64,000 bases of DNA from Pseudochrobactrum kiredjianiae (GTDB lineage Bacteria > Pseudomonadota > Alphaproteobacteria > Rhizobiales > Rhizobiaceae), in assembly GCF_030362795.1 (NCBI RefSeq), contig NZ_JAUCBM010000001.1, positions 682,001 to 746,000 of the forward strand, given 5' to 3'. A program made the translations under genes and the position numbers. The notes beneath the pieces are model-generated. The model saw only the letters and a list, made by a program, of their open reading frames with translations. It did no database searches and was not told the DNA's origin. Of this stretch, positions 19,723-33,970 are shown piece by piece (the stretch's first letter is position 1; the number at the start of each line of letters is the position of its first letter).

Positions 19723-19735
19723 ATGTCGACATTTC
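19723..19735. promoter_or_regulatory. GntR operator candidate, autoregulatory (site A)
   Basis: ATGTCGACAT (19723-19732) is a perfect 10-bp palindrome 76 bases before the GntR start. It matches the TGTCGACA core seen at the other three sites. A weaker 12-bp copy may lie just upstream (AACAATCA, 19716-19723). Confidence 0.55.
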
Positions 19736-19807
19736 TTGGAAAATATTTAAACAGGGATGCGAATGTGTCCTGATGTATGAATGAGAATTGAGATTAACGG
19801 AGCTTCC

Positions 19808-20494
19808 ATGTCCAAGGCAGAAAATGCGCAGGCAACGCCGGCAGGTCAGATATTTGACAGGATATGGCTCTCTATCGCCGAGCGGCGTTTGAAGCCCGGC
19901 ACACGTCTCAAAGAAGAAGAACTGGCTGAGATTTTTGATGTCAGCCGCGCCCGCATCCGGCAGGCTTTGGCTACGCTGGAACGCGAAGGACTGGTAACAA
20001 TTCAGGCCAATCGCGGCGCGTTCGTCTCCGAGCCTTCTGTGGAAGAAGCGCGGGACGTGTTCTATGCCCGCCGTGCGATTGAACATCGTGTGGTTGAACG
20101 TCTGTGCGAGCGTATCAATAAAGAGCATGTCGCACGTCTCAATGCCCATGTAGAAGAAGAGCGCACAGCCGACCGTCAGGGCAATCGTACAGATATTATT
20201 CGCCTGTCCGGCGGGTTCCATTTGTTGCTGGCAGAGCTTGCAGGGTCTTCCTTCCTTTACGGTATCGTCAAAGATCTGATCTCACGCACATCGCTGATTA
20301 CGGCGGTTTATCGTTCGCGTCATTTGCATAATTGCGGGCCGGATGAGCATCAGGCGATTGTTGAACATATTGCGCGTGGCGATACGGAAATTGCCATCAA
20401 AGCTGTGCTCGAACATCTGGACCGTGTGGAATGTGAACTGGAATTAGAGGACGAAAAAGATCAGTCCTATAATTTACGTGCTGCATTGCTCTGA
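19808..20494 (+). CDS. GntR-family transcriptional regulator with FCD domain
   Basis: A 228-residue regulator of the FadR/FCD branch. The HTH is at residues 15-75 (LKEEELAEIFDVSRARIRQAL, here split as LKEEELAEIF and SRARIRQAL). The all-helical FCD effector domain has FHLLLAELAGS and HQAIVEHIARGD, with histidines that bind metal in this family. ATG 19808 (MSKAENAQ) is preferred to 19781. Similar 12-bp operator-like repeats precede this gene, both binding-protein genes downstream and the flavin reductase/M24 peptidase pair, so I take it as the regulator of the 20-34 kb catabolic block. Confidence 0.9.
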   Translation: MSKAENAQATPAGQIFDRIWLSIAERRLKPGTRLKEEELAEIFDVSRARIRQALATLEREGLVTIQANRGAFVSEPSVEEARDVFYARRAIEHRVVERLCERINKEHVARLNAHVEEERTADRQGNRTDIIRLSGGFHLLLAELAGSSFLYGIVKDLISRTSLITAVYRSRHLHNCGPDEHQAIVEHIARGDTEIAIKAVLEHLDRVECELELEDEKDQSYNLRAALL

Positions 20495-20521
20495 GTTTAT
20501 TTTTTGTAACTTCGAAATTCC

Positions 20522-20556
20522 AACTCCGGAAACCTTCAGGTTTGCCGGAGTTTTTT
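20522..20556 (+). terminator. Rho-independent terminator of the GntR gene
   Basis: AACTCCGG (20522-20529) pairs with CCGGAGTT (20545-20552), the stem continues inward with AAACC and GGTTT, and six T follow. Confidence 0.88.
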
Positions 20557-20573
20557 GTGTCCTCTGAAATATT

Positions 20574-20609
20574 TGATGACAAATATGTTGACAATTATGG
20601 CGACATAAA
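20574..20609. promoter_or_regulatory. Three 12-bp direct repeats, GntR operator candidate (site B)
   Basis: TGATGACAAATA (20574-20585), TGTTGACAATTA (20586-20597) and TGGCGACATAAA (20598-20609) are contiguous. The GACA cores are exactly 12 bases apart. The array ends about 80 bases before the start of the first binding-protein gene. Confidence 0.6.
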
Positions 20610-20687
20610 ACATCGTCAGACACTATTCTGCGCCTTCCGGCTTGAGGAAGAGGAAGGCGGTTTACCGTGTCGGCGAGAGGGACGACT

Positions 20688-22253
20688 ATGACTTCACTAT
20701 TGAAAAAACTGTTATTCTGTACGGTTGCTACTTGCATTAGCACCGCATCTTTTGCGGAAACGCTGCGCTGGGGCGGCGCGCGGGATATTTTCTCGCTGGA
20801 TCCATATTCATATGGCAGCACATCCAATCTGGCATTCCTGAACCATATTTATGAAGGTCTGGTACGCTATACGCCTGAATTCGTAGTGGAGCCTGCACTG
20901 GCAACCAGCTGGGAGCTGATTGACAATAAAGTCTGGCGTTTCAAGCTGCGTGAAGGCGTTAAATTTCAGGACGGTTCTGACTTCACTTCGGCAGATGTTG
21001 TCGCTTCAATGAAGCGCGTCAGCCATCCGTCTTCACCGTTGCGCGGGAATATTCCGTTGTTTGTCGGCGCGACTGCTGTCGATGATTATACGGTTGATAT
21101 TGAAGTCTCATCACCGAGCCCGTTGTTCCTCAACGATATGACCAATATTTTCATGTTCGATGCGGATTGGCTGGTTAAAAATAACTCTGAAATGCCAACC
21201 GATGTTGGCGGTCAGGTTGAAGGCTATACGACTTTCCATACCAATGGTACGGGCCCGTTCACGCTGGAAAGCCGTGTGCCGGACAGCAAGACCATTCTGG
21301 TTAAATATGACGGCTGGTGGGATGATGCGAAGCACAATCTCGACCGTATTGAATTCACGCCAATTGCTTCGCCTGCAACGCGTGTAGCTGCGCTCCTTTC
21401 CGGCGAGATTGATCTGGTGGATGGCGTGCCGTTGCAGGATGTGAAGCGTCTGGAAAGCACGCCGAATATTCGTGTTGAACAGCGCCCTGATCTGCGCACC
21501 ATCAATCTGGTATTCAACCGTAAGGAAAAGCTCAACGACGGACGCGACAACTTCTTCAATGATTTGCGCGTGCGTCAGGCGATCGATCATGCAATCGACC
21601 GCGATCTGCTGGCGAAGCGCGTGATGCGCGGCATGACTCATACAGCGGGAACTGTGGTTGCGCCGGAAATTCCGGGCTATACAAAAGAGCTGGATATTCC
21701 GACAAAATATGATCCTGAACTGTCCAAAAAACTGCTTGAAGAAGCCGGTGCCGTCGGTTCTGAATTCACTTATCTCTGCATGAATGACGAGAGCGTGAAT
21801 GAAGAGGATGTCTGCTCGGTTATCGTCACGATGTTGAGCCGGGTCGGTCTGAAGCCGAAGCTGGATATTGCCCCGCGTGCCGTGCAGGCACCGAAACGTT
21901 CCAGCGGTAAATCCGATATGTTTATGATCGGCTGGGCGAATGAGCCGACACTGGATGCTTATTCCATTCTGGTGCAGGTTCTCTCCACGCGTAAGGGTGC
22001 AGCTGGTGTTGCGAATTACGGCGGCTGGTCCTATCCGGAGCTGGATGCGCTGACTGAAAAGGCGGCTTTGGAAATGGATCGTGATAAACGTCTGGCACTC
22101 GAATCCGAGGCGCTTGGAATTGTGAAGTCCGAGGTCATTATGGTGCCTTTGCATCAGCAGCCGATGGCATGGGGTATGACCAAGAAAGTTGAAGATGTCA
22201 CCATTCGTGCGGACAATAAGCCGCGGCATTGGTTGACACGTATCGCTAAATAA
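20688..22253 (+). CDS. Family 5 (oligopeptide-type) ABC substrate-binding protein, paralogue 1
   Basis: A 521-residue periplasmic binding protein of the DppA/OppA type. The signal peptide covers about residues 1-22 and ends ...STASFA before ETLRWGG. Family features are IYEGLVRY, ALATSWE, the NGTGPFTLESR segment and APEIPGYTKELD. ATG 20688 follows GAGAGGGA. It is clearly a duplicate of the 22659-24230 protein, with long shared blocks along the whole length. A terminator follows directly, so it is probably a single-gene transcript that feeds the same permeases. Ligands of family 5 range from peptides to nickel and opines, so the ligand here is open. Confidence 0.9.
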   Translation: MTSLLKKLLFCTVATCISTASFAETLRWGGARDIFSLDPYSYGSTSNLAFLNHIYEGLVRYTPEFVVEPALATSWELIDNKVWRFKLREGVKFQDGSDFTSADVVASMKRVSHPSSPLRGNIPLFVGATAVDDYTVDIEVSSPSPLFLNDMTNIFMFDADWLVKNNSEMPTDVGGQVEGYTTFHTNGTGPFTLESRVPDSKTILVKYDGWWDDAKHNLDRIEFTPIASPATRVAALLSGEIDLVDGVPLQDVKRLESTPNIRVEQRPDLRTINLVFNRKEKLNDGRDNFFNDLRVRQAIDHAIDRDLLAKRVMRGMTHTAGTVVAPEIPGYTKELDIPTKYDPELSKKLLEEAGAVGSEFTYLCMNDESVNEEDVCSVIVTMLSRVGLKPKLDIAPRAVQAPKRSSGKSDMFMIGWANEPTLDAYSILVQVLSTRKGAAGVANYGGWSYPELDALTEKAALEMDRDKRLALESEALGIVKSEVIMVPLHQQPMAWGMTKKVEDVTIRADNKPRHWLTRIAK

Positions 22254-22274
22254 TTGAGTGAACGACTGATTTAC

Positions 22275-22303
22275 AGCGCCGGTATGGGCTACATACCGGC
22301 GCT
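22275..22303 (+). terminator. Terminator of binding-protein gene 1
   Basis: AGCGCCGGTATG (22275-22286) and CATACCGGCGCT (22292-22303) form a perfect 12-bp stem with loop GGCTA, followed by ATTGTTATTTC. Confidence 0.75.
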
Positions 22304-22312
22304 ATTGTTATT

Positions 22313-22420
22313 TCTAGAGCATTTCACAGTCAAGTTGGATCAACTTGACGACGGGATAATGCGACAAACTAAAGAAACTAGAGCGAGCACTGCGATCCAA
22401 CATGAACGTAAATCGCTCTA
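22313..22420. repeat. Dispersed palindromic repeat elements (TAGAGC family)
   Basis: The first element begins TCTAGAGCATTTCA and contains the perfect palindrome GTCAAGTTG-gat-CAACTTGAC (22329-22349). The second has arms TAGAGCGA (22379-22386) and TCGCTCTA (22413-22420). Similar arms occur at 11763 and 48604. They look like the short intergenic repeats of Brucella relatives. Confidence 0.6.
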
Positions 22421-22433
22421 ACACTATGTATTT

Positions 22434-22481
22434 ACAGCATAATTTTACTGATTCTGATTCATGTTTAAGGAATTATGCTGT
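22434..22481. repeat. Inverted repeat
   Basis: ACAGCATAATT (22434-22444) and AATTATGCTGT (22471-22481) are perfect 11-bp arms with a 26-base spacer. It lies between the TAGAGC elements and operator site C and is probably another dispersed repeat. Confidence 0.5.
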
Positions 22482-22554
22482 AGCGCTGTTTTTCTGTGTT
22501 TTTCTGTGTTTTTAACGTAGCGTTAATTGCATCGTTAAATTTCGCTGATAATTA

Positions 22555-22578
22555 TGTCGACAATTTAGTTGACAATTA
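22555..22578. promoter_or_regulatory. Two 12-bp direct repeats, GntR operator candidate (site C)
   Basis: TGTCGACAATTT (22555-22566) and AGTTGACAATTA (22567-22578) place GACA cores 12 bases apart, as at site B. The pair lies 80 bases before the second binding-protein gene. Confidence 0.6.
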
Positions 22579-22658
22579 AATCTGAATTCAACAAACTCCC
22601 TGCACGGACAAACACCATCAAGAGTGAAGAGCCGGTTATCGTTTTGGGGAACTTAATC

Positions 22659-24230
22659 ATGAAATTCAGAAAATCGATCCTTGCGGGTCTGATGGCTTTC
22701 GCATTGAGCCATACCGCCAATATTGCATCTGCTGAAACACTGCGTTGGGGAGCTGCGCACGATGTTTATTCGCTTGATCCGTACTCCTATGGTGACAGCT
22801 ATACGATTGCGTTTCTCAATCACGTTTACGAAGGCCTTGTGCGCTACAATGCCGATCTGAAGATCGAGCCTGCGCTGGCTACCAGCTGGGAAGTTGTGGG
22901 CGAAAACACATGGCGCTTTAATTTACGCAAAGATGTGAAATTTCATAATGGCGCGGATTTTACTGCCAATGACGTGCTGGCCTCGCTCACCCGTGTGAGC
23001 CATCCGACATCACCGCTGCGCGGTAACCTGCCAGCCTATAAATCAGCGAAGATTGTTGACGATCATACCATCGATATCGAGCTGACCGGCCCTTATCCGC
23101 TGCTGCTCAATGACCTGACCAATATTTTCATTTTTGATGAGAAATGGCTGGTTGATAATGATTCTCTGCTGCCGACCGATGTAGGCGGGCAGAAAGAAGG
23201 CTATGCCACCTATAACACCAATGGCACGGGTCCGTTTAAGCTGGAAAGCCGCGTACCGGACAGCAAAACCGTTCTGCTGAAATTTGACGGCTGGTGGGAT
23301 AAGCCGCAGCATAATATCGACAAGATTGAATTCACGCCGATCATTTCCTCGGCAACCCGTGTTGCAGCCCTTCTTGGCGGTGATGTGGATTATACCGATT
23401 CCGCGCCGACACAGGATATGGCGCGTCTGGCAGCGGCACCGGGATTGCGTCTGCTGGAACGCACAGATTTGCGTACTGTCTTTGTCGGCTTCCAGCGTCG
23501 TGAAAAACTGCACAATGGTGCGGAAAATCACTTCAATAAACTGGGTGTCCGTCAGGCCGTTGCTCATGCGCTGGATATGGATCTGATCAAAAAGCGTATC
23601 ATGCGCGACAAGTCCCGCAATGCCGGTACGATTATTGCGCCGGAAATTCCGGGTTACACAAAAGAGCTGGATACTCTCTATGGCTATGATCTGGATAAAG
23701 CCAAAGCGCTTTTGAAGGAAAACGGTGCCGAGGGCTTCCCGTTCACACTGGTCTGCACCTATGAAAACTACCTGAATGAAGAAGAGTTGTGCAATGGCAT
23801 GATCTCCATGCTGACCCGTGCCGGTTTCAAGCCGTCGCTGGATATCGGGCCGACAGCTGTTCAGGCACCAAAACGCACTGCCGGTCAGGCTGATGCCTAT
23901 GTGCTCGGTTGGGCGAATGAGCCGATGCTCGACAGCTATTCCATTCTGATGCAGGTCATTCAGACCAAGTCCGGTGTTGCGGGTGTGTTTAACTGGGGCG
24001 GCTGGTCCTATCCGGAGCTGGATGAACTGGTCACCAAGGCCTCCACGGAAATGGATCGCGAGAAGCGTCTGGCTTTGCAGACCAAAGCTCTGGAAATCGT
24101 GAAAAAGGAAATCATCCAGCTGCCGTTGCATCAGCAACCGATTGCCTGGGTGCTGACCGATAAGGTGGAAAGCGTTGTGCAGCAGGCTGATAACAAGCCG
24201 CGTCACTGGCTGACAGTCCTTAAAAAATAA
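22659..24230 (+). CDS. Family 5 (oligopeptide-type) ABC substrate-binding protein, paralogue 2
   Basis: A 523-residue periplasmic binding protein, first gene of the transporter operon running to 30962. The signal peptide covers about residues 1-25 (ILAGLMAFALSH core) and the mature protein begins ETLRWGAAHD. It shares long blocks with the 20688-22253 protein, including DVGGQ.EGY, NGTGPF.LESRVPDSKT and APEIPGYTKELD. ATG 22659 has GGGGAA upstream; the longer frame from 22569 has no signal character at its N-terminus. A perfect T-less stem-loop follows it before the first permease. Confidence 0.9.
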   Translation: MKFRKSILAGLMAFALSHTANIASAETLRWGAAHDVYSLDPYSYGDSYTIAFLNHVYEGLVRYNADLKIEPALATSWEVVGENTWRFNLRKDVKFHNGADFTANDVLASLTRVSHPTSPLRGNLPAYKSAKIVDDHTIDIELTGPYPLLLNDLTNIFIFDEKWLVDNDSLLPTDVGGQKEGYATYNTNGTGPFKLESRVPDSKTVLLKFDGWWDKPQHNIDKIEFTPIISSATRVAALLGGDVDYTDSAPTQDMARLAAAPGLRLLERTDLRTVFVGFQRREKLHNGAENHFNKLGVRQAVAHALDMDLIKKRIMRDKSRNAGTIIAPEIPGYTKELDTLYGYDLDKAKALLKENGAEGFPFTLVCTYENYLNEEELCNGMISMLTRAGFKPSLDIGPTAVQAPKRTAGQADAYVLGWANEPMLDSYSILMQVIQTKSGVAGVFNWGGWSYPELDELVTKASTEMDREKRLALQTKALEIVKKEIIQLPLHQQPIAWVLTDKVESVVQQADNKPRHWLTVLKK

Positions 24231-24238
24231 CAAGATTG

Positions 24239-24271
24239 GCCGTGCCGCAAGGGAAGAAGTTGCGGCACGGC
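24239..24271 (+). repeat. Perfect stem-loop between binding-protein and permease genes
   Basis: GCCGTGCCGCAA (24239-24250) and TTGCGGCACGGC (24260-24271) form a 12-bp stem with a 9-base loop and no T-run. It probably limits read-through or protects the 3' end of the binding-protein message. Confidence 0.7.
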
Positions 24272-24345
24272 CTGATGATTATTGAAGTAAAAGAGCGGTG
24301 AATAGGTGCGGTAACGCGCAAATTGCCCTTGGGAGAGACAACTGA

Positions 24346-25317
24346 ATGCTTGTATTTATTATCAAGCGACTGGCAAACGCAGCCATGGTTATGCTTGCTG
24401 TGGCATTGCTGGCTTTCATGATTTTCCGTTTTGCGGGCGATCCTGTGGAACTGATGGCCAATGAGCAAATGAGCCAGATCGACCGCGATGCTTTGCGCGA
24501 CCGGCTCGGGCTGAATGACGGCTTTGTCACGCAATATGCGCGCTTTGTCAGCGATGCGGTGCAGGGCAATTTCGGTATTTCTTACCGTAATGGTCAGGAA
24601 GTGCTGGGGCTGATTGCCGAGAGCTTTCCGGCCACGATGGAGCTGGTCATTGTCGCCACATTGCTTTCCCTGATTATCGGTATTCCGATGGGGGTTATTA
24701 CCGCAATTCATCGCGGCAAATGGTATACTGAATTATTCCAGTTCACCTCAATTATCGGGGTGTCATTACCAAGCTTTGTCGTTGGTATTCTGCTTATCCT
24801 GCTGTTCTCTGTCACACTTGGCTGGTTGCCGGCATTCGGACGGGGTGATGTGGTGCAACTTGGCTGGTGGTCAACCGGATTTCTCACCCATTCCGGGCGT
24901 CTGGCGCTGATCCTGCCATCCATTGCGCTGTCGCTCTATCAGATCACGCTGATTATGCGTCTGGTGCGTGCGGAAATGCTGGAAACATTGCGCTCTGATT
25001 TCGTGAAATTTGCCCGTGCCCGTGGTATTCCGCGCTATCGGATTTATTTCCGCCATGCGCTGCGCAACTGCCTGATGCCGGTTGTCACCATGACGGCGAT
25101 GAATATCGGTTCTCTAATCGCCTTTGCGCTGATCACCGAGACTGTGTTCCAGTGGCCGGGTATGGGGATGCTGTTTATTCAGGCGGTAACATTCATCGAT
25201 ATTCCGGTGATGGCGGCCTATCTCTGCATCGTTTCTTTCATCTTTGTTGCGCTGAACACGCTGGTTGATATCACCTACGCTGTGATTGATCCGCGCCTGC
25301 GCGCTGCTACACGCTAA
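24346..25317 (+). CDS. ABC transporter permease (DppB/OppB type)
   Basis: A 323-residue inner membrane permease with about six transmembrane segments. It has the DppB N-terminus (IIKRLANAAMVM) and the ATPase-contact loop FVKFARARGIPRYRIYFRHALRN, here split at RARG. GGGAGAG precedes ATG 24346. It pairs with the DppC-type permease that follows after 10 bases, and it serves the two binding proteins upstream. Confidence 0.92.
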   Translation: MLVFIIKRLANAAMVMLAVALLAFMIFRFAGDPVELMANEQMSQIDRDALRDRLGLNDGFVTQYARFVSDAVQGNFGISYRNGQEVLGLIAESFPATMELVIVATLLSLIIGIPMGVITAIHRGKWYTELFQFTSIIGVSLPSFVVGILLILLFSVTLGWLPAFGRGDVVQLGWWSTGFLTHSGRLALILPSIALSLYQITLIMRLVRAEMLETLRSDFVKFARARGIPRYRIYFRHALRNCLMPVVTMTAMNIGSLIAFALITETVFQWPGMGMLFIQAVTFIDIPVMAAYLCIVSFIFVALNTLVDITYAVIDPRLRAATR

Positions 25318-25327
25318 AGGGGCTCTC

Positions 25328-26275
25328 ATGACAGATAATATAAATGCCCCGCTTGCTAACCAAAAATCACGCTGGCAGCGTATGAAAGACAGTGATCTGT
25401 GGTGGTCATTCACCCGTAACAAACCGGCAATGATTTCTGCTGTTTTGCTGACAGTGATGATCGTCTCCGCTTTCGCTGCACCGCTGATTGCTCCGCAAAA
25501 TCCGTTTGATCCGGCGCAGCTGGACCTGTGGAACTCCGAACTGCCGCCGATCTGGAATGCGGATGGCCAATGGCCATATCTGCTGGGGACTGATACGCAG
25601 GGTCGCGATATTCTCTCAGCCATTCTCTATGGTTCGCGGATTTCCATTCTGATTGGTGTTGCCTCGGTATTCCTGTCGCTGGTCATTGGTCTGAGCTTTG
25701 GCCTGATCGCCGGTTATATGCAGGGCATTATCGACAATCTGCTGATGCGTATCGGTGACGTGCTGCTTTCGATCCCGACCATTCTGATCGCTATTCTGGT
25801 CAGCGCCGTGGTGCGCCAGATGCTGCCTGCGGATTTGCGTGATTATGCTGCTGCCGGTGTTCTGGTACTGGCAATCACTTTGTCGGGCTGGGTACAATAT
25901 GCGCGTACTGTGCGTGCACAGACGATTGTTGAGCGCTCCAAGGAATATGTGCAGGCTGCACGCCTTCTGAAAGTGCCATCCCGCCGCATTATGATGTACC
26001 ATATTCTGCCGAATACGCTGACGCCGATCCTTGTGGCCGCGACGCTTAATTTTGGTATGGCCATCCTCACCGAAGCCACGCTTTCCTTCCTTGGTATCGG
26101 TATGCCGCCGAGCCAGCCGAGCCTTGGCACGCTGATCCGTCTTGGTAATCAGTTCCTGTTCTCCGGTCTGTGGTGGATTACCGTTTTCCCTGTCTTGCAG
26201 CTCTGCCTGCTGGTTGTCGCCGTGAACGTGCTTGGTGACTGGCTGCGCGATGCTCTCAATCCAAAACTGAGGTAA
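25328..26275 (+). CDS. ABC transporter permease (DppC/OppC type)
   Basis: A 315-residue inner membrane permease. The N-terminal cytoplasmic part and first helix (FTRNKPAMISAVLLTVMI) are typical of OppC, followed by the LLGTDTQGRDILS motif and the loop QAARLLKVPSRRIMMYHILPN. It starts at ATG 25328 (MTDNINAPL). It is followed five bases later by an amidohydrolase in the same operon. Confidence 0.92.
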   Translation: MTDNINAPLANQKSRWQRMKDSDLWWSFTRNKPAMISAVLLTVMIVSAFAAPLIAPQNPFDPAQLDLWNSELPPIWNADGQWPYLLGTDTQGRDILSAILYGSRISILIGVASVFLSLVIGLSFGLIAGYMQGIIDNLLMRIGDVLLSIPTILIAILVSAVVRQMLPADLRDYAAAGVLVLAITLSGWVQYARTVRAQTIVERSKEYVQAARLLKVPSRRIMMYHILPNTLTPILVAATLNFGMAILTEATLSFLGIGMPPSQPSLGTLIRLGNQFLFSGLWWITVFPVLQLCLLVVAVNVLGDWLRDALNPKLR

Positions 26276-26280
26276 AAATT

Positions 26281-27474
26281 ATGTCTGATCTTTTGTTACG
26301 CAATGTGCGCCCTCATGCAGGTCAAGCCACAGATATTCTGATCCGTCAGGGTCGCATCGCTGAATATGGCACAAACCTCAGTGCGGATGGTGTTGCTGTT
26401 GAAGACGGTCAGGGACATATTGTTATCCCTGGTCTGATTGATGCCCATACCCATCTCGATAAAACCAATTGGGGTCTCGACTGGCATGTGAACGGCAAGC
26501 AGGCGAGTTTGCGCGAGCGTATTGATTTTGAACGTGAAAAGCGTCTTGAAATCGGTCTCGATCCGCATATCCAGTCGATGCGCCATGCGATCGGCCTGAT
26601 TGCGCATGGTTCCAGCCATATCCGCAGCCATGTGGATATTGATACGACCCATGGTCTGAAAATTCTCGAAGGCGTGTTTGAAACCCGCGAGAAACTTAAA
26701 GACCTGATCGACATCGAAATCGTTGCTTTCCCGCAATCCGGTCTGATGGTGATGCCGGGCACACTGGAATTGCTGGATGAAGCGCTGCGTCAGGGCTGTG
26801 AAGTGCTGGGCGGTATTGACCCTTGCGGTATCGACCGTGATCCGAAAGGCCAGCTGGATGCGCTGTTTGCGCTTGCAGTGAAACATGGCAAGCCGATTGA
26901 TATTCACCTGCACGAACTGGGTGAACTCGGCGCTTTCACCATGGAACTGATCTTTGAGCGTATCCGCGCCAATGGCATGCAGGGTAAGGTCGCGATTAGC
27001 CATGCTTTCACACTCGGTGCGAATGATTATCTGCGTGTCTCGAGCCTGCTGGAGCAGCTTCGCGAGCTTGATGTTGCCATTCTCACCACCGGTGCGCCTT
27101 CCGTTCCGGTGCCGTCTGTACTGCGCCTCAAAGAAGCGGGTATCCGCATGGGCGCCGGTTGTGACGGTATCCGCGACACATGGGGTCCGTGGGGACAGCC
27201 GGATATGATCGACCGTGCCAAAGTGATCGGTATGAAAAACGGCCTGCGCCGTGACGTTGATCTGGAGCATGTGCTGCATATCTGCTCGCAGGGCGGTGCG
27301 GATGTGATGCAGCTGGAAGGCTATGGTCTGGATGTTGGCTGCAAAGCTGACATGACTTTGCTCACCGGCCAGACACTGGCTCATGCCGTTGTTGATGTGG
27401 CACCACGCCCGCTGGTGATTAAAGGCGGTCGTGTTACTGCACGTAACGGTACTGCTGTGGTGGAAATGCCATGA
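26281..27474 (+). CDS. Amidohydrolase, cytosine deaminase-like
   Basis: A 397-residue TIM-barrel metal hydrolase of the amidohydrolase superfamily. The metal ligands of the family are visible: HTH in PGLIDAHTHLDKT, His in DIHLHELGELG, His in ISHAFTLG, and Asp in GAGCDGIRD. The arrangement is closest to cytosine deaminase and isopropylammelide hydrolase. It lies between the transporter permeases and a second amidohydrolase, and its stop overlaps the next start, so it probably removes or opens an amide or amidine group of the imported compound. Confidence 0.88.
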   Translation: MSDLLLRNVRPHAGQATDILIRQGRIAEYGTNLSADGVAVEDGQGHIVIPGLIDAHTHLDKTNWGLDWHVNGKQASLRERIDFEREKRLEIGLDPHIQSMRHAIGLIAHGSSHIRSHVDIDTTHGLKILEGVFETREKLKDLIDIEIVAFPQSGLMVMPGTLELLDEALRQGCEVLGGIDPCGIDRDPKGQLDALFALAVKHGKPIDIHLHELGELGAFTMELIFERIRANGMQGKVAISHAFTLGANDYLRVSSLLEQLRELDVAILTTGAPSVPVPSVLRLKEAGIRMGAGCDGIRDTWGPWGQPDMIDRAKVIGMKNGLRRDVDLEHVLHICSQGGADVMQLEGYGLDVGCKADMTLLTGQTLAHAVVDVAPRPLVIKGGRVTARNGTAVVEMP

Positions 27475-28985
27475 CGGACAAGACACAATTCACTGCACTT
27501 GAAAGCTTGAAACTGGGTGCGCGTCCTGAGGGGCGCACACTGCTCACAGCACAATGGGTGCTTGGGCATATTGATGGCCAGCATCGCCTGTATAAAAACG
27601 GTGAAGTGGTGATCGAAGATGGCACCGTGCTGTTCGTCGGTCACGATTTTGCCGGTGAGGTTGCGCGTCGTATTGATCTTGGCAATGCACTGATCAGTCC
27701 GGGTCTGATCGACCTCGATGCGCTGTCCGATCTCGACACGACGATTCTCGGTATTGACCACCATCCGGGTTGGGCGAAAGGCCGTGTCTGGCCTAAATCC
27801 TATATCGATAGCGGCCCTTATGAGATGTACAGCCAAGATGAGCTGGCATTCCAGAAGCGCTTTGCATTCGGCCAGCTGCTGCAAAACGGTATTACCACCG
27901 CAGCACCGATTGCCTCGCTGTTTTACCGCGAATGGGGCGAAACCGTAGCGGAATTTGATGCGGCAGCGGATGCTGCCGGTGATCTGGGATTGCGCGTTTA
28001 CTTGAGCCCTGCGTATCGCGCCGGTGGTATGATGCTGGAAAGCCCTGGCAAAATTGTACCGGTCTTTAACGAAGAGCGCGGCTTTGCCGGACTTAAAGAT
28101 GCTGCGGATTACATCACCCGCCAGAATGGCCGTCATGGTGATCTGGTGCGCGGTATGCTGGCGCCGGATCGTGTGGAAACCTGTACCGCTGATCTGTTGA
28201 AGCGTACGCAGGATGTGGCGCATGAGCTGGATTGTAAAATCCGCTTGCATATGGCGCAGGGTCAGATGGAAGTGGAAACAGTGCGTAGCCTGCATGGTAC
28301 CACTGCACCGGTCTGGCTCAACAATCTTGGCGTGCTCAATGACCGGATTATCGCTCCTCATGCCACCAATGCAACAGATGAGGATCTGACACTATACGCG
28401 CAAAATAATGTGTCGATCATTCATTGTCCGCTGGTTTCATCCCGTGGCGGCAGCACACTGAAGTCGTTCTCCAGTGTGAAAAAGCGCGGCATCAATATTG
28501 CTATGGGCACCGACACCACACCGCCTGATATGTTGATGAACCTGCTGATCGGGTTGATTACCTGCCGTATCAATGACGGTACACCGGAAAGCATCCGCTG
28601 TGCTGATCTGTTTGATGCAGCGACACTGGGCGGCGCCAAAGCGCTGGGACGCGACGATCTTGGCCGCCTGCAGGCAGGTGCCAAGGCTGATATCGCTGTG
28701 TTCGGTCTTGATGATACATTCATGGCACCAAGCATTGATCCGATCACCACATTGGTCACCGGCGGTTCCGGCAAAGTCACTAAAGCTGTGTTTGTGGATG
28801 GTCGTCTGTCGATGCGCCATGGTGAAGTTGCAGGCATTGATATGCAGGCAGCACGCGCACAGGCACAGGCACAATATGATGGCCTGATCGCTAAATATCC
28901 TGAGCGTTCCTACAATAATCCGCCGGTATCAGAGATTTTCCCGCCGAGCTATCCGCTGGCCGGAAAACACGGAGAGGAAGCATAA
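27471..28985 (+). CDS. Amidohydrolase family protein lacking the HxH metal motif
   Basis: A 504-residue amidohydrolase of the chlorohydrolase/guanine deaminase type. It begins inside the previous stop (ATGA, 27471-27474). Where the family has PGxxxxHxH, this protein reads PGLIDLDALSDLD (residues about 76-88), so the first two histidine ligands are absent. Later ligand positions are kept: His260 (RLHMAQG), His297 (APHATNA) and Asp348 (GTDTTPP). It may bind a single metal or use a different ligand set, or may have shifted function. The operon position links it to the same substrate as the first amidohydrolase. The C-terminal 60 residues are rich in Ala and Gln, then end in a Pro-rich tail. Confidence 0.85.
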   Translation: MTDKTQFTALESLKLGARPEGRTLLTAQWVLGHIDGQHRLYKNGEVVIEDGTVLFVGHDFAGEVARRIDLGNALISPGLIDLDALSDLDTTILGIDHHPGWAKGRVWPKSYIDSGPYEMYSQDELAFQKRFAFGQLLQNGITTAAPIASLFYREWGETVAEFDAAADAAGDLGLRVYLSPAYRAGGMMLESPGKIVPVFNEERGFAGLKDAADYITRQNGRHGDLVRGMLAPDRVETCTADLLKRTQDVAHELDCKIRLHMAQGQMEVETVRSLHGTTAPVWLNNLGVLNDRIIAPHATNATDEDLTLYAQNNVSIIHCPLVSSRGGSTLKSFSSVKKRGINIAMGTDTTPPDMLMNLLIGLITCRINDGTPESIRCADLFDAATLGGAKALGRDDLGRLQAGAKADIAVFGLDDTFMAPSIDPITTLVTGGSGKVTKAVFVDGRLSMRHGEVAGIDMQAARAQAQAQYDGLIAKYPERSYNNPPVSEIFPPSYPLAGKHGEEA

Positions 28986-28986
28986 T

Positions 28987-29979
28987 ATGGCAGAAACCTC
29001 TTCTACCAGACCGACCCTTGAGGTCAAAAATCTGCAGGTTGATTTTCCGGGACGTCGCGGCACACTGACCGCTTTGTCGGATGTCAGCCTGTCGATCATG
29101 CCGGGAGAAATTCTCGGCGTGGTTGGTGAATCCGGCGCGGGTAAATCCATGACCGGTCTGGCTGTGCAGGGCTTGCTTGAATCGCCGGGGCATATTGCCG
29201 GTGGTGAAGTTTTGCTCAATGGCCGCCGCATTGATAATCTCAGCGATAAAGAAATGCAGAAAATCCGTGGCCGTGAAATCGGCGCGATTTTTCAGGACCC
29301 GCTGACATCGCTCAATCCGCTTTTCACAATCGGGTCGCAGTTGGTTGAAACCATCACCCAGCATTTAGCCTTAAGCCGCACGCAGGCACATGAACGCGCG
29401 ATTTCGCTGTTGAAAGAAGTGGGCATTCCGGCACCGGAAGACCGCATCAATCATTATCCGCACCAGTTTTCCGGTGGTATGCGCCAGCGTGTTGTGATTG
29501 CATTGGCACTGGCCGCAGAGCCAAAGCTGATTATTGCTGATGAGCCGACAACAGCACTTGATGTGTCTATTCAGGCGCAGATTACTTCGCTGTTGCGTCG
29601 TCTTTGCAAAGAACATGGCACAGCAGTAATGCTGGTTACCCATGATATGGGCGTGATTGCCGAAACCGCTGATCGTGTGGCCGTGATGTATGCCGGTCGA
29701 TTGGTGGAAAACGGACCGGTTGAAACCGTGCTGAAAAATCCGAGCCATATGTATACCCGCGGTTTGATGAGTTCCATTCCGGCGCTGGGCAAACGAGTGG
29801 AACGGCTGAACCAGATTGACGGCTCGATGCCGCGTCTTGATGCCATTCCGACCGGTTGTGCCTTCAATCCGCGCTGCGTGAAAGCGTTTGACCGTTGCCG
29901 TAGCGAGCGTCCTGATCTGATGCCAGCGGTGGATGGTACAGGTGTCAGCGCCTGCTGGCTCAATGCGGGAGCTGCCTGA
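28987..29979 (+). CDS. ABC transporter ATP-binding protein (DppD/OppD type)
   Basis: A 330-residue ATPase. It has Walker [10 protein letters not shown], signature [15 protein letters not shown], Walker [13 protein letters not shown] and the switch His in [12 protein letters not shown]-terminal oligopeptide-transporter domain has two cysteine-containing loops (TGCAFNPRC). It overlaps the DppF-type gene by one base. Confidence 0.93.
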
Positions 29980-30962
29980 TGAGTGATATTGCTATGAAAC
30001 AGACACCTGCTGCCCTTGAAGTCAAAGATCTGAGCATTTGCTTTGATGTTTCTGCTCCATGGCTCAACCGTGTAATCGAGCGCAAACCGCGCCAGCTGCT
30101 GCATGCGGTTAATGATATCAGTTTCAGCGTGCCGCAGGGCGGGTGCTTAAGTCTTGTTGGTGAGTCCGGTTGCGGCAAGTCCACTGTGGCGCGTCTGGTG
30201 ACGGGTCTTTACCGTCCGAGCAATGGTGAAATTCGTTTTGCACCATCAAAAAGCGGCGCACCATTGTCAGCGCATATGATCTTTCAGGATCCTTATGCGA
30301 GCCTTAATCCGCGCTGGCGGGTACACAGCATTATTGCTGAACCGCTGCGTGAATTGAAATTGCGTAAGACTGAAGCCGAGATTAATGAGCGTGTGGAAGA
30401 ACTGCTGAAAATCGTTGGTCTTGCACCATCGGACGGCAAGAAGTTCCCGCATGAGTTTTCTGGTGGTCAGCGCCAGCGTATTTCGATTGCCCGCGCCCTT
30501 GCGGGTGAGCCAGAATTTCTGGTCTGCGATGAGCCGACTTCAGCGCTGGACGTCTCTGTGCAGGCACAGATTCTCAATCTGATGCGCAGGCTGCAGGATG
30601 AGCTTGGTCTGACTTTCCTGTTCATCAGTCATGATATGAGTGTTGTCCGCCATATGTCGGATCGCATCGCGGTGATGTATCTGGGACGGATTGTTGAGGA
30701 AGCAGATACAGAAACGCTGTTTGCTGATCCGAAGCATCCTTATACGCGTCTGCTTTTGGAAACGATCCCGAATATTGCTGAACCGCATCGTGATCGTGTG
30801 GTCGGAGGCGGTGAAGTGCCAAGCCCGCTGAAACCGCCTTCTGGTTGCACATTCCATCCGCGTTGTGCGTTTGCGGATAGCCGCTGCTCGGCAACAAAGC
30901 CGGAAATGAAAGCTTATGATGACGGCAGCCGCGTTGCCTGCCATCGTATCGGAGAAATTTAA
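29979..30962 (+). CDS. ABC transporter ATP-binding protein (DppF/OppF type)
   Basis: A 327-residue ATPase partner of the previous gene. It has Walker A GESGCGKST, signature FSGGQRQRISIARAL, Walker [15 protein letters not shown] and the C-terminal SGCTFHPRCAFA motif. The start overlaps the previous stop (TGATG). It is the last gene of the rightward transporter operon; two hairpins follow at 31074-31148. Confidence 0.93.
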   Translation: MSDIAMKQTPAALEVKDLSICFDVSAPWLNRVIERKPRQLLHAVNDISFSVPQGGCLSLVGESGCGKSTVARLVTGLYRPSNGEIRFAPSKSGAPLSAHMIFQDPYASLNPRWRVHSIIAEPLRELKLRKTEAEINERVEELLKIVGLAPSDGKKFPHEFSGGQRQRISIARALAGEPEFLVCDEPTSALDVSVQAQILNLMRRLQDELGLTFLFISHDMSVVRHMSDRIAVMYLGRIVEEADTETLFADPKHPYTRLLLETIPNIAEPHRDRVVGGGEVPSPLKPPSGCTFHPRCAFADSRCSATKPEMKAYDDGSRVACHRIGEI

Positions 30963-31005
30963 GCGTATCCCGAAAAGTGTGAAGCGGTTTTCGGATAAGA
31001 TACGC
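30963..31005. repeat. Rhizobial-type palindromic intergenic repeat
   Basis: Outer arms GCGTAT (30963-30968) and ATACGC (31000-31005) enclose CCGAAAA (30970-30976) and TTTTCGG (30988-30994). The CGAAAAGTG...GGTTTTCGG pattern is a well-known short repeat type in rhizobia and relatives. Confidence 0.6.
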
Positions 31006-31073
31006 GTAAAAACAAATAGATAGAGAATTTTCTGTAATTCAGGATAAACAGGAAAAGCTCTAAGGAACCCTCC

Positions 31074-31101
31074 GTGCCGGATGTCTTCGGATATCCGGCA
31101 C
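31074..31101 (+). terminator. UUCG-loop hairpin after the transporter operon
   Basis: GTGCCGGATGTC (31074-31085) and GATATCCGGCAC (31090-31101) pair with one wobble around a TTCG tetraloop. There is no T-run, so it may act with the next hairpin. Confidence 0.6.
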
Positions 31102-31114
31102 CCATCCGGCAAAA

Positions 31115-31148
31115 GGCGACAGAGTTCTCTCTGTCGTCTTTTGTTTTT
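31115..31148 (+). terminator. Rho-independent terminator of the transporter operon
   Basis: GGCGACAGAG (31115-31124) and CTCTGTCGTC (31129-31138) form the stem with loop TTCT, followed by TTTTGTTTTT. Confidence 0.85.
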
Positions 31149-31211
31149 AGAGCGCCATGCGGTCGCTTTCTGCACAAAATCAGTTTTAACAATTTATAAT
31201 GCAGGCAATAA

Positions 31212-31245
31212 AAAAGCCTCCGGACATTGCTGGCCGGAGGCTTTT
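31212..31245. terminator. Bidirectional terminator, mainly for the racemase gene
   Basis: AAAAGCCTCCGG (31212-31223) and CCGGAGGCTTTT (31234-31245) form a perfect 12-bp stem flanked by A and T runs. It ends the leftward transcript of the racemase gene. Confidence 0.85.
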
Positions 31246-31266
31246 CAAAAGCTGTGGTGCGCGTGG

Positions 31267-31965
31267 TTATTTCATACGCGGATAATCATAGGCACCGGCT
31301 TTGGAGGTGCGATATCCGGCGCTGACATAAGCTTCTGCCAGTTTGACCGCAGCGGTTACGCCGTCGATCACCGGCAGACCGCAACGCTGTTCCAGCCTTT
31401 CGCACAGTTCCGACATACCGGCACAACCGAGGACAATCGCTTCTGCATGGTCTTCGCGTTTGGCGCGTTCGATTTCCTGCACCAGCGTGTCTTCCGTATG
31501 GCAGGCGTTTTCTTCCAGTGCCAGCACCGGCATGTCGATGGAACGCACACGGCGGCAATGATGGGTAGCACCATATTCCTGCACCAGATCTTCAATGATC
31601 GGCACCGAACGGGGCAGAGTGGTGACGATGGAGAAACGCTTGGAAATGGTCATGGCAACCTGCACAGCAGCCTGACAAATACCGAAAACCGGACCACCGG
31701 CAACTTCACGGGCAGCATCCAGTCCCGGATCGTCAAAACAGGCGACAACATAGGCATCAAAGCCTTTTGTCTCTCCCTCACGGATAAGCTTCAGCATTGA
31801 CGGAACAGCCATTGCTTCGTCAGCATGGCCTTCAATACTGCGCGGTGTATCCGTCGGATTAATGGCCTCAATGACTGTGGTTGGCAGGGCTGCGCTGCGG
31901 GCGCTGCGTTCTGCCTGATCAGTCATGGATTGGGTGGAGTTCGGATTGATAAGAAGAATGCGCAA
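31267..31965 (-). CDS. Asp/Glu/hydantoin racemase family protein
   Basis: A 232-residue cytoplasmic enzyme of the Asp/Glu racemase superfamily. It starts MRILLINPNST, typical of hydantoin racemase and related decarboxylases. The two catalytic cysteines are visible in VVACFDDPGLDAA and VLGCAGMSEL. It is the second gene of a leftward pair with the flavin reductase (gap 4 bases) whose promoter region carries GntR site D. It would invert or decarboxylate a chiral intermediate released by the amidohydrolases, for example a hydantoin or N-carbamoyl compound. Substrate not proven. Confidence 0.87.
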   Translation of the reverse strand: MRILLINPNSTQSMTDQAERSARSAALPTTVIEAINPTDTPRSIEGHADEAMAVPSMLKLIREGETKGFDAYVVACFDDPGLDAAREVAGGPVFGICQAAVQVAMTISKRFSIVTTLPRSVPIIEDLVQEYGATHHCRRVRSIDMPVLALEENACHTEDTLVQEIERAKREDHAEAIVLGCAGMSELCERLEQRCGLPVIDGVTAAVKLAEAYVSAGYRTSKAGAYDYPRMK

Positions 31966-31969
31966 GGGC

Positions 31970-32605
31970 TTAGCCTTTATTGGTCAAACGATCCTGAAAC
32001 GCAGCTAATCCTGGCGATTTCAGTACAAACTGGTTATCGGAAGTGATGTAGTTATCGGCATGCAAACGAGCGATTGGCTGATAGGTCTCAGGATTGACGT
32101 AACGGCCTGCCTCATCCAGACAGTCGCGGCGCACATGCATATGCACGACCTCACCAAGCACGATGACACGGCGTTCATATTCAATCAGCCGCTCCACCCG
32201 ACATTCCATGGAGCAGGGCGATGCAGGCAGCCAGCGGGAACAAACCTGTGTTCCGGCCTCAGAAGTCAGTCCGGCCATAGCGACTTCATCAACATCAGGC
32301 TCGAAACCGATCCCGCAAACCAACATGGCATCGGATATCGCCATATCCACCATGTTGATGGTAAATTCCTGTGTCCGGCGGATATTGCCTACTGTATCCT
32401 TTTCCTGTCCGTCCGGCCTTGTTTGAATACCGAGAATGACAATTGCCGGATCATGGGAGAAGACGTTAAAAAAGCTCATAGGGGCAGCATTGTCCTGCCC
32501 GTTTTCCGCGCGGGTTGTAACCAGAGCAATCGGTCGCGGGCCGACAAAATTTGTCAGCAGCCGGTAACGGTCGAGCGGTTCCATTTGCGTGAAATCAAAA
32601 TCCAT
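31970..32605 (-). CDS. Flavin reductase-like FMN-binding protein
   Basis: A 211-residue protein of the flavin reductase-like/flavoprotein oxygenase family. The FMN-binding split-barrel begins with YRLLTNFVGPRPIALVTT and APMSFFNVFSHDPA, and continues with QEFTINMV. It may be an FMN reductase serving a monooxygenase, although no partner monooxygenase lies in this block. It is divergent from the M24 peptidase; the 174-base gap between them holds GntR site D. Confidence 0.85.
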   Translation of the reverse strand: MDFDFTQMEPLDRYRLLTNFVGPRPIALVTTRAENGQDNAAPMSFFNVFSHDPAIVILGIQTRPDGQEKDTVGNIRRTQEFTINMVDMAISDAMLVCGIGFEPDVDEVAMAGLTSEAGTQVCSRWLPASPCSMECRVERLIEYERRVIVLGEVVHMHVRRDCLDEAGRYVNPETYQPIARLHADNYITSDNQFVLKSPGLAAFQDRLTNKG

Positions 32606-32662
32606 TCATGTTCCCCCGTTATTGTTATGGAGTCGTGCTAATCTAGAAAAAATCCATATTAT

Positions 32663-32686
32663 TGTCTACAAATATGTTGCCAATAA
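32663..32686. promoter_or_regulatory. Two 12-bp direct repeats, GntR operator candidate (site D)
   Basis: TGTCTACAAATA (32663-32674) and TGTTGCCAATAA (32675-32686) are contiguous and in the same 12-bp register as sites B and C. They lie between the divergent flavin reductase and M24 peptidase genes and could control both. Confidence 0.55.
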
Positions 32687-32779
32687 TATTCATCATTGTT
32701 TGCAATGAAATTTGCTCTGTTTTCTTGAAATCACCTGATATATGAGGGTGTATCTGAAAAGAAACGGGAAGATCGTCCG

Positions 32780-33970
32780 ATGATTGGTGGCTCTGATTAC
32801 ACAACAGAACTGGCTTCTATCCGCCTTTGGGCAGATGTTGCACCGGCAATAACAATTGCTGAACGACAGGCACGGCTTGAGAAAGCCCGCAGTCTGATGG
32901 CAGCAAGCGGGGCTGGTGCGCTGATTGTTGGCGCGGGCACGAGCCTGAATTATTTTACCGGTATTGGCTGGGGCATGATTGAGCGGCTGGTGGCTATGGT
33001 GCTGCCGCTTAAAGGGGAGCCTTATCTGATCTGTCCGGCTTTTGAAGCCGGATCGCTGGAAGCCGTGCGCATTATGGATGCACGTGTGCGGTTGTGGGAA
33101 GAGCATGAAAGCCCGTCTGATCTCGTTGCACAAATCCTGAAAGATGAAAATTGCTCCGTGCTGGCCGTCGATCCGGCGCTGCCCTTTGGTATGGCAAGCG
33201 GTATCGGTAAAGCCGCCGGTAGTGTGAAACTGACAGATGCGACTGCGATTATTGACGGCTGCCGCAGTGTGAAATCACCGGCAGAAATCGCGATCATGAA
33301 ACAGGCCATGCAGATGACACTGGAAGTGCATCGCCGCGCTGCCCGTATTCTGCATGTTGGTATCAAAGCCAGCACAGTTCGCAATTTCATTCATGAAGCG
33401 CATAAGGCAATCGGCAGCAATGGCAGCACTTTTTGCGCCGTGCAATTTGGCCGCTCGACGGCTTTTCCGCATGGATTGCCGCAGGATGATGTGCTGGTTG
33501 AAAATGATGTCGTGCTGGTCGATACCGGTTGTCTGGTACAGGGCTATAATTCCGACCTGACACGTACTTATATTTTCGGCACACCGACTGCTGAGCAGCA
33601 GCGTATCTGGGATATTGAAAAAGAGGCACAGCTTGCAGCATTTGCAGTCGCTAAAATTGGCTCAACTTGTGGCTCAGTGGATGATGCAGCCCGCGCTGTG
33701 CTGGAGCGTCATGGCTTGGGGCCGGACTACCAATTGCCGGGTCTGCCGCACCGTACCGGCCACGGCATCGGGATGACCATTCATGAGGCACCTTATCTGG
33801 TGCGCGGTAACCAGACTGTGCTGCAGGCTGGCATGTGCGTTTCCAATGAGCCGATGATCGTGGTGCCGGAACAATTTGGTATCCGGTTGGAAGATCATTT
33901 TTATATGACAGAACAAGGTGCGGAGTGGTTTACCGAGCCGTCATTCAGCATGACGCAGCCATTCGGTTAG
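32780..33970 (+). CDS. M24 family metallopeptidase (Xaa-Pro peptidase/creatinase fold)
   Basis: A 396-residue pita-bread enzyme. The N-terminal creatinase-like domain spans about residues 30-160 and the catalytic domain follows. All five metal ligands can be placed: Asp in VVLVDTGC, Asp in YNSDLTRTY, His in GHGIGMTIHEAPY, Glu in CVSNEPMIV and Glu in GIRLEDHFY. GGGAAGA precedes ATG 32780. No signal peptide, so cytoplasmic. The fold covers proline peptidases, creatinase and ectoine hydrolase, so in this regulon it may cleave an amide that is not a normal peptide. Confidence 0.9.
   Translation: MIGGSDYTTELASIRLWADVAPAITIAERQARLEKARSLMAASGAGALIVGAGTSLNYFTGIGWGMIERLVAMVLPLKGEPYLICPAFEAGSLEAVRIMDARVRLWEEHESPSDLVAQILKDENCSVLAVDPALPFGMASGIGKAAGSVKLTDATAIIDGCRSVKSPAEIAIMKQAMQMTLEVHRRAARILHVGIKASTVRNFIHEAHKAIGSNGSTFCAVQFGRSTAFPHGLPQDDVLVENDVVLVDTGCLVQGYNSDLTRTYIFGTPTAEQQRIWDIEKEAQLAAFAVAKIGSTCGSVDDAARAVLERHGLGPDYQLPGLPHRTGHGIGMTIHEAPYLVRGNQTVLQAGMCVSNEPMIVVPEQFGIRLEDHFYMTEQGAEWFTEPSFSMTQPFG

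Follow-up and report, generated by a model that had tools for sequence, protein, structure and literature searches.

The window analysed here is a 64,000-nucleotide stretch of the Pseudochrobactrum kiredjianiae genome (contig NZ_JAUCBM010000001.1, positions 682,001–746,000; coordinates below count from its first letter). It contains a gene for a GntR-type regulator, gntR, and a cluster of transport and catabolic genes whose promoters carry short rows of a palindromic sequence, TGTNNACA, which are probably operators of that regulator. The gntR gene (19808–20494, forward strand) encodes 228 amino acids from the ATG at 19808; in the list of open reading frames it starts at 19781. The protein matches the Pfam models GntR (5e-17, 61.8 bits, cut-off 27) and FCD (8.5e-22, 78.3 bits, cut-off 24.3), and its layout – an N-terminal GntR winged helix and a C-terminal FCD domain – fits the FCD (FadR/VanR) class.

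Two genes on the forward strand encode family-5 solute-binding proteins (SBP). The first, sbp1 (20688–22253), matches Pfam SBP_bac_5 at 7.7e-88 when scanned from a GTG at 20667, and its start was placed by sequence reading. The second, sbp2 (22659–24230; SBP_bac_5, 1.6e-75), heads the transport operon. Behind it on the same strand are two ATP-binding cassette (ABC) permease genes, dppB- and dppC-like (24346–26275), two amidohydrolase genes (26281–28985) and two ABC ATPase genes, dppD- and dppF-like (28987–30962). The permeases and ATPases were assigned by synteny: the first permease matches peptide/nickel-type permease models and the first ATPase matches oligopeptide/dipeptide ATPase models, in both cases below the cut-offs, and the second of each pair was named by eye. 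The amidohydrolases score above cut-off for NCBIfam PRK05985 and PRK06151 and have relatives of solved structure. The first resembles isopropylammelide hydrolase and cytosine deaminase, and the second is chlorohydrolase/aminohydrolase-like, with weaker structural matches to methylthioadenosine/adenosylhomocysteine, 8-oxoguanine and triazine aminohydrolases. On the reverse strand lie genes for a hydantoin/allantoin racemase-like protein (31267–31965; Pfam Asp_Glu_race, 3.6e-62), whose matches of solved structure are a putative hydantoin racemase (3qvj, 5.1e-61) and an allantoin racemase (5lfd, 2.6e-45), and for a flavin reductase-like protein (31970–32605; Pfam Flavin_Reduct, 5.9e-24). Divergent from the latter, on the forward strand, is a gene of the M24 peptidase/creatinase family (32780–33970; Pfam Peptidase_M24, 2.6e-54).

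Two terminator-like hairpins lie on the forward strand. The one between gntR and sbp1 (20522–20556), a hairpin with a T-run, was found by sequence reading and is largely kept in the genus alignment; a consensus terminator scan did not flag it. The other, after sbp1 (22275–22303), resembles an intrinsic terminator and comes from that scan, which gave 5 such sites in the region against 3.2 in shuffles. No Rfam family matched between 19000 and 33500 at gathering scores. The intergenic stretch between sbp1 and sbp2 at 22316–22419 starts with AGAGC and ends with GCTCT, and a 19-base piece of it (22388–22406) recurs near 639.7 kb (G000:C1; L111:11687) and may be a small dispersed repeat.

The first-pass annotation had reported a 12-base-pair (bp) direct repeat, head to tail and in strict 12-bp register, in three promoters of this cluster. 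The register holds at 20574, 22555 and 32663. In array 1 (20574–20605) the 12-mer copies TGATGACAAATA (20574), TGTTGACAATTA (20586) and TGGCGACATAAA (20598) follow one another at exact 12-bp steps, with the cores TGATGACA, TGTTGACA and TGGCGACA; the copy at 20598 has three mismatches to the 12-mer first described, but its TGGCGACA core is still in register. This array ends 83 bp 5’ of the sbp1 ATG (20688). Array 2 (22555–22574) consists of TGTCGACAATTT (22555) and AGTTGACAATTA (22567), with the cores TGTCGACA and AGTTGACA, and ends 85 bp 5’ of the sbp2 ATG (22659). Array 3 (32663–32682), between the divergent flavin reductase and M24 genes, consists of TGTCTACAAATA (32663) and TGTTGCCAATAA (32675), with the cores TGTCTACA and TGTTGCCA; a weaker core, TGTTTGCA (32697–32704), lies 22 bp from the second of these. 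In the gntR promoter the palindromic core noted earlier is present as a full palindrome, ATGTCGACAT (19723–19732), the single perfect site there. It does not stand by itself, however: a weaker core matching at 5 of 6 bases, TTTAAACA (19746–19753), is found 22 bp downstream. The sites thus link gntR, both SBP/transport units and the divergent flavin reductase–racemase and M24 genes through their promoter regions, as had been proposed.

The part of the unit that recurs is TGTNNACA, a palindrome usually embedded in ATTGTYRACAAT; it agrees with the GT...AC operators, with 2–3 nucleotides (nt) between, of the FCD (FadR/VanR) class, and the cores in gntR’s own and in the target promoters are predicted operators. 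A symmetric unit reads alike in direct and inverted orientation, so the rows are tandem full operators without head-to-tail polarity. The description as direct repeats is not supported.

Isolated copies of the 12-mer are common in the window, with 26 at up to two mismatches against 15.1 expected (standard deviation 3.7; none of 100 shuffles reaches 26). Same-strand pairs at 12 bp number three, where shuffles give a mean of 0.01 and a maximum of 1 (n = 300), and no further spacing between 8 and 40 bp is represented in the window. Pairs of TGTNNACA cores (at least 5 of 6 bases) at 12 bp occur six times against 1.07 (standard deviation 0.99, maximum 5, 100 shuffles); this looser test, weaker than that of the 12-mer pairs, also yields five pairs at 24 bp and four at 9 bp.

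The first-pass annotation had named frequent occurrence of the motif in unrelated DNA as grounds for giving up its proposal. Genome-wide, such frequency is found for the single unit and not for the tandem form. At up to one mismatch the single 12-mer has 62 copies, about as many as its reversed control (59), so it is not specific and was rejected as a genome-wide marker. The tandem form TGTNNACA-W4-TGTNNACA, also at up to one mismatch, has seven matches in the 4.46 Mb host genome and one in the reversed control. Four of the seven are in the three window promoters, one is before glcB, one before allE, and one, TGTCGACTATTTTGTCTACA (L032 9911–9930; G000:C8:105910), lies across the start of a gene judged by eye to be autotransporter-like. 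The last is probably a chance match and was treated as such because no counterpart is recognisable among the matches of the other six genus genomes. A degenerate tandem pattern was dropped as too loose (91 matches, 39 in the reversed control). In the seven genus genomes the two-unit array, at up to one mismatch, occurs 46 times at 12 bp, 10 times at 11 bp and once at 13 bp, and the reversed control of the 12-bp search gives 3. The 11-bp control is not pure noise, since six of its 10 matches are one sequence common to six genus genomes. TGTGAACAAAATGGAAACA (L109, L110; G000:C6:79566), which comes from the 11-bp search, is common to six genus genomes.

A row of TTGACA-like repeats in a promoter could also be a cluster of −35 elements and no operator at all. 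TTGACA lies inside TGTTGACA and AGTTGACA, and a consensus scan puts one minus-strand sigma-70-like pair across array 2 (22575–22548). Most perfect cores lack TTGACA, however (TGTCGACA, TGTCTACA and TGTCAACA, for instance), and what they have in common is the symmetric TGT/ACA. No coding-strand pair was found at arrays 1 and 2, the two that were scanned, though alphaproteobacterial promoters may escape the consensus. Clustered −35 elements are a barely credible explanation of the arrays.

Within the genus, array bases are better conserved than the drifting flanks. Array 1 has 26 of 32 bases invariant against 53 of 161 outside it, and the gntR palindrome 10 of 10 against 98 of 197, in each case across six Pseudochrobactrum promoters. 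For array 3 the counts are 19 of 20 and 103 of 154 (five promoters), and for array 2, 13 of 20 and 45 of 138 in the genus promoters, a count lowered by one sbp2 promoter that is cut short in the alignment. The 12-bp step of array 2 is kept in all five other Pseudochrobactrum sbp2 promoters. At the partner core at 19746, TTAAACA is kept in the six aligned genus promoters, and TGTTTGCA at 32697 is invariant in five.

Relatives of gntR were sampled from Ensifer, Rhizobium, Nitratireductor, Cypionkella, Gemmobacter, Tabrizicola, Paracoccus and others, with 37 loci in one set. Most of these loci share the SBP, the permeases, the two amidohydrolases, the ATPases, the racemase and the flavin reductase. 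Often gntR and the flavin reductase–racemase pair point away from each other across the sites, and in several loci a second array lies 5’ of the transport genes. Two of the loci (L045 in genome G064 and L051 in G016) hold a pair of gntR paralogues close together, and one paralogue is transcribed divergently from the flavin reductase–racemase genes. Another locus, L055, from a record titled Bacillus subtilis strain SK6B4, has 96–99% protein identity to that of the host and is probably from a mislabelled genome.

The spacing between cores recurs across these loci. The 83 gntR-linked promoters form 29 similarity clusters, and in 16 of these a perfect core is accompanied, at 12 bp, by another that matches at 5 or more of 6 bases; three of the 16 are among the four genus clusters, which leaves 13 of 25 outside the host genus. 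In the same 29 clusters a spacing of 22 bp occurs in 7, 13 and 25 bp in 3 each, and every other spacing from 8 to 40 bp in at most 2, while shuffles give a mean of 0.0 and a maximum of 1 (200 shuffles). This set left out genome copies (L044, L055–L058), matches below 45% identity or starting late, and promoters shorter than 70 bp; single-linkage clustering put 17 promoters into one cluster. A redundant set of 47 gntR promoters was scored by a half-site rule for partners of the strongest core: 35 have one at 12 bp, 16 have one at 22 bp, and 46 show at least one of these two spacings. Distances of 13, 21 and 24 bp occur in 4 each, and 10, 11, 14, 20 and 23 bp in 1, 1, 0, 2 and 1. Plasmid loci were taken from 21 of 60 plasmid records; one (L181) was dropped as a copy of L180, leaving 20, in which 22 bp occurs 7 times, 13, 26, 35 and 39 bp twice each, and 12 bp once (shuffle means 0.04–0.08). 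Eleven of the plasmid loci are distant homologues (40–48% identity).

The favouring of 12 and 22 bp, and not of 16–21 bp, is consistent with helical phasing. A phase statistic gave R = 0.48 with the 12-bp class removed, against 0.35 for the 99.9% point of the null; it counts spacings from the same promoter as independent, which they are not, and is supportive only.

In a sample of 151 genomes of the family, 12 have a gntR match at E ≤ 1e-60. Arrays are borne by 7 of the 10 such genomes outside the genus and by 31 of the 139 without a gntR match (Fisher p = 0.003, uncorrected for relatedness). The ten hold 13 arrays, with none in the reversed control, and 10 of these have a gntR relative no more than 10 kb away. 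The genomes without a gntR match hold 45 arrays, with 25 in the reversed control.

Two arrays of the host genome outside the window are of metabolic interest. A perfect two-unit array, TGTCTACAATTATGTAAACA, stands before glcB, the gene for malate synthase G (G000:C6:35113-35132; L092, L112), in all seven genus genomes, and is kept while the sequence upstream of it drifts. The array TGTCGACAATATTGTATATA stands before allE (G000:C1:640762-640781; L100, L111) in six of the seven; the seventh genome, in which no allE array was found, is 61% complete. The allE product scores above cut-off for (S)-ureidoglycine aminohydrolase. In other genera it is the regulator gene itself that is linked to this pathway. 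Directly behind gntR, allE is found (78–80% identity) at 10 Ensifer/Sinorhizobium loci, at L069 and at L044 (a copy of L064); it is 2.5 kb from gntR in Paracoccus onubensis and within 4 kb in Defluviimonas. In Sulfitobacter a xanthine dehydrogenase-family gene adjoins gntR and an amidohydrolase gene. Ureide-pathway genes are thus tied to the system by an operator array in Pseudochrobactrum and by adjacency in Ensifer. The racemase, the amidohydrolases, the allE and glcB arrays and the gntR–allE linkage together point to purine-derived ureides or hydantoins that would be degraded to glyoxylate.

The arrays are probably operators of the FCD-GntR protein encoded at 19808–20494, which would bind them as adjoining dimers and govern an autoregulated regulon for the uptake and breakdown of ureides or hydantoins. 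A number of observations weigh against this reading. Several sbp2 promoters lack a core pair, the best core in the promoter of one of the paralogues (L045, 54%) reaches no more than 4 of 6 bases, and a pair at 5 of 6 bases or better is missing from 10 of the 21 plasmid loci; some plasmid loci, moreover, resemble earlier ones, so that this test is not fully independent. The neighbouring genes are all that points to ureides or hydantoins as the substrate. The annotated loci of Sinorhizobium medicae ml29 and S. meliloti Ak57 show no allE next to gntR, in gene tables that are incomplete. In other genera, gntR-bearing ones included, a 12-bp pair was found at none of 23 glcB loci and none of 19 allE loci (two partial glcB loci of G051, in which the match begins late, were excluded). 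The glcB and allE arrays as an ancestral feature were therefore rejected, and at these two genes the regulon would have been extended in this genus only.

Ownership of the arrays is also to be weighed. The host genome has 13 FCD matches and thus 12 other candidate binders. The promoter of one of these other FCD genes (L114) contains a TGTCAACA core, which makes a paralogue a possible owner of the glcB and allE sites. To this is added that the 31 array-bearing genomes mentioned above manage without a gntR match. If the arrays are the operators of another regulator with the same motif, either one of the 12 FCD proteins or an unrelated factor, it is not explained why all but one of the 47 gntR promoters hold a second core 12 or 22 bp from the strongest, or why arrays of gntR-bearing genomes outside the genus lie so largely next to the regulator gene. 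Such a regulator is very unlikely to be the owner of the arrays as a whole.

The other question is how many dimers would sit on a row. GntR might bind one dimer at a time, with the weaker neighbours serving as alternative registers or half-sites that raise the local affinity. The units beside the strongest one are as a rule weaker than it, and many are half-sites; weak half-sites 7–12 nt from the centre, with no known function, are present in many GntR groups (PMC4494728); and contiguous dimers at 12 bp might collide. Against a single dimer stand four promoters (L050, L080, L084 and L086) with two perfect cores 12 or 13 bp apart, as well as the 22-bp class, about one turn further, a spacing that overlapping alternative registers do not explain. 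We regard binding by one dimer at a time as unlikely.

In the mechanism of adjoining dimers that we favour, each ATTGTYRACAAT-type unit would hold one GntR dimer. In a row of two or three units, of which typically one is strong and the rest are weaker, neighbouring dimers would dock side by side at 12 bp, which is one helical turn plus about 1.5 bp, or at 22 bp, one turn further. Side-by-side docking would make repression steep, and a small molecule bound in the FCD pocket would relieve it. Three histidines that may belong to this pocket, H138, H181 and H203, are invariant in 35 aligned relatives; their equivalence to a metal site was judged by eye, and three metal-binding histidines have been named for HypR and TM0439 (PMC6608401). 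The regulator would control itself, the two SBPs, the ABC importer, the amidohydrolases, the racemase/flavin reductase pair and the M24 peptidase. Pseudochrobactrum would add allE and malate synthase G to the regulon, whose task would be to take up ureides, hydantoins or related products of purine breakdown and to degrade them towards glyoxylate and malate. We infer binding by GntR, simultaneous occupancy, repression as opposed to activation, the effector and the substrate from the arrangement of sites and genes; cooperative binding, taken from the spacing only, is plausible.

The usual picture of GntR proteins is one dimer on one palindrome. It is conceivable, if somewhat doubtful, that the whole clade of FCD-GntR proteins uses phased palindrome arrays at 12 or 22 bp, with dimers forming a short oligomer along the DNA. 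If so, phased arrays would be a general, tunable route to a steep GntR switch that needs no long N-terminal arm. The operator rows would offer a natural series of spacings (12, 13 and 22 bp) for how contacts between dimers set the steepness of repression, and the transporter/amidohydrolase cluster becomes testable as a ureide or hydantoin pathway ending in glyoxylate and malate.

HpxS is a purine regulator. Like HypR, which regulates hydroxyproline genes (PMC5343134), it belongs to the FadR subfamily and has a 2-nt centre (PMC4494728), a form that the host cores share; the TGTNNACA core fits the 2-nt-centre form of the FadR-subfamily consensus (PMC4494728). In E. coli the allantoin and glyoxylate operons are controlled by AllR, which is compared with the IclR family (PMC11323563), whereas the host regulator is an FCD GntR protein. 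The words allantoin and hydantoin are absent from the main text of PMC4494728, and neither this locus nor an FCD array at 12 or 22 bp is named in titles or abstract openings among the listed matches from the open-licence literature.

The first-pass annotation had held that FCD-type GntR proteins normally bind one short palindrome and that tandem sites are unusual for them. That tandem sites are unusual needs qualifying. Weaker boxes 7–12 nt from the site centre were described for 13 FadR-subfamily groups, and a constant distance for some double sites (Suvorova et al. 2015; PMC4494728). Those boxes are half-sites of unknown function, whereas the units of the host arrays are often full second or third palindromes, with two preferred centre distances. 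Atu1419 of Agrobacterium fabrum, an FCD protein of the VanR group, has the 10-bp palindrome ATGTATACAT as its binding site, and its own promoter region is among the places bound (PMC7797058). This is the same type of core as ATGTCGACAT at 19723. Unlike the host arrays, the palindromes of Atu1419 are 190 bp (and 109 bp) apart and are bound by a tetramer with looping of the DNA; no adjoining array appears in the passages of PMC7797058 drawn on here.

The closest precedent for the mechanism is NanR of E. coli, an FCD GntR protein with several operator repeats, (GGTATA)3, on which three dimers bind close together and cooperatively; binding weakens when the spacers are made six nucleotides longer (PMC8012715). 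The resemblance lies in the class of protein and the repeated operator. The NanR repeats are GGTATA, and one DNA-binding domain rests on non-consensus sequence, whereas the host units are TGTNNACA palindromes, spaced at 12 or 22 bp, and not GGTATA repeats. NanR has an N-terminal extension of 32 residues, whereas the host protein has about 20 residues before the GntR domain from the earlier start and about 11 from the ATG at 19808. Against the NanR family model NF003011 it scores 79.2 bits, below the cut-off of 260. The architecture of the arrays is well supported; the mechanism is a proposal, for which NanR is the cooperative FCD precedent.

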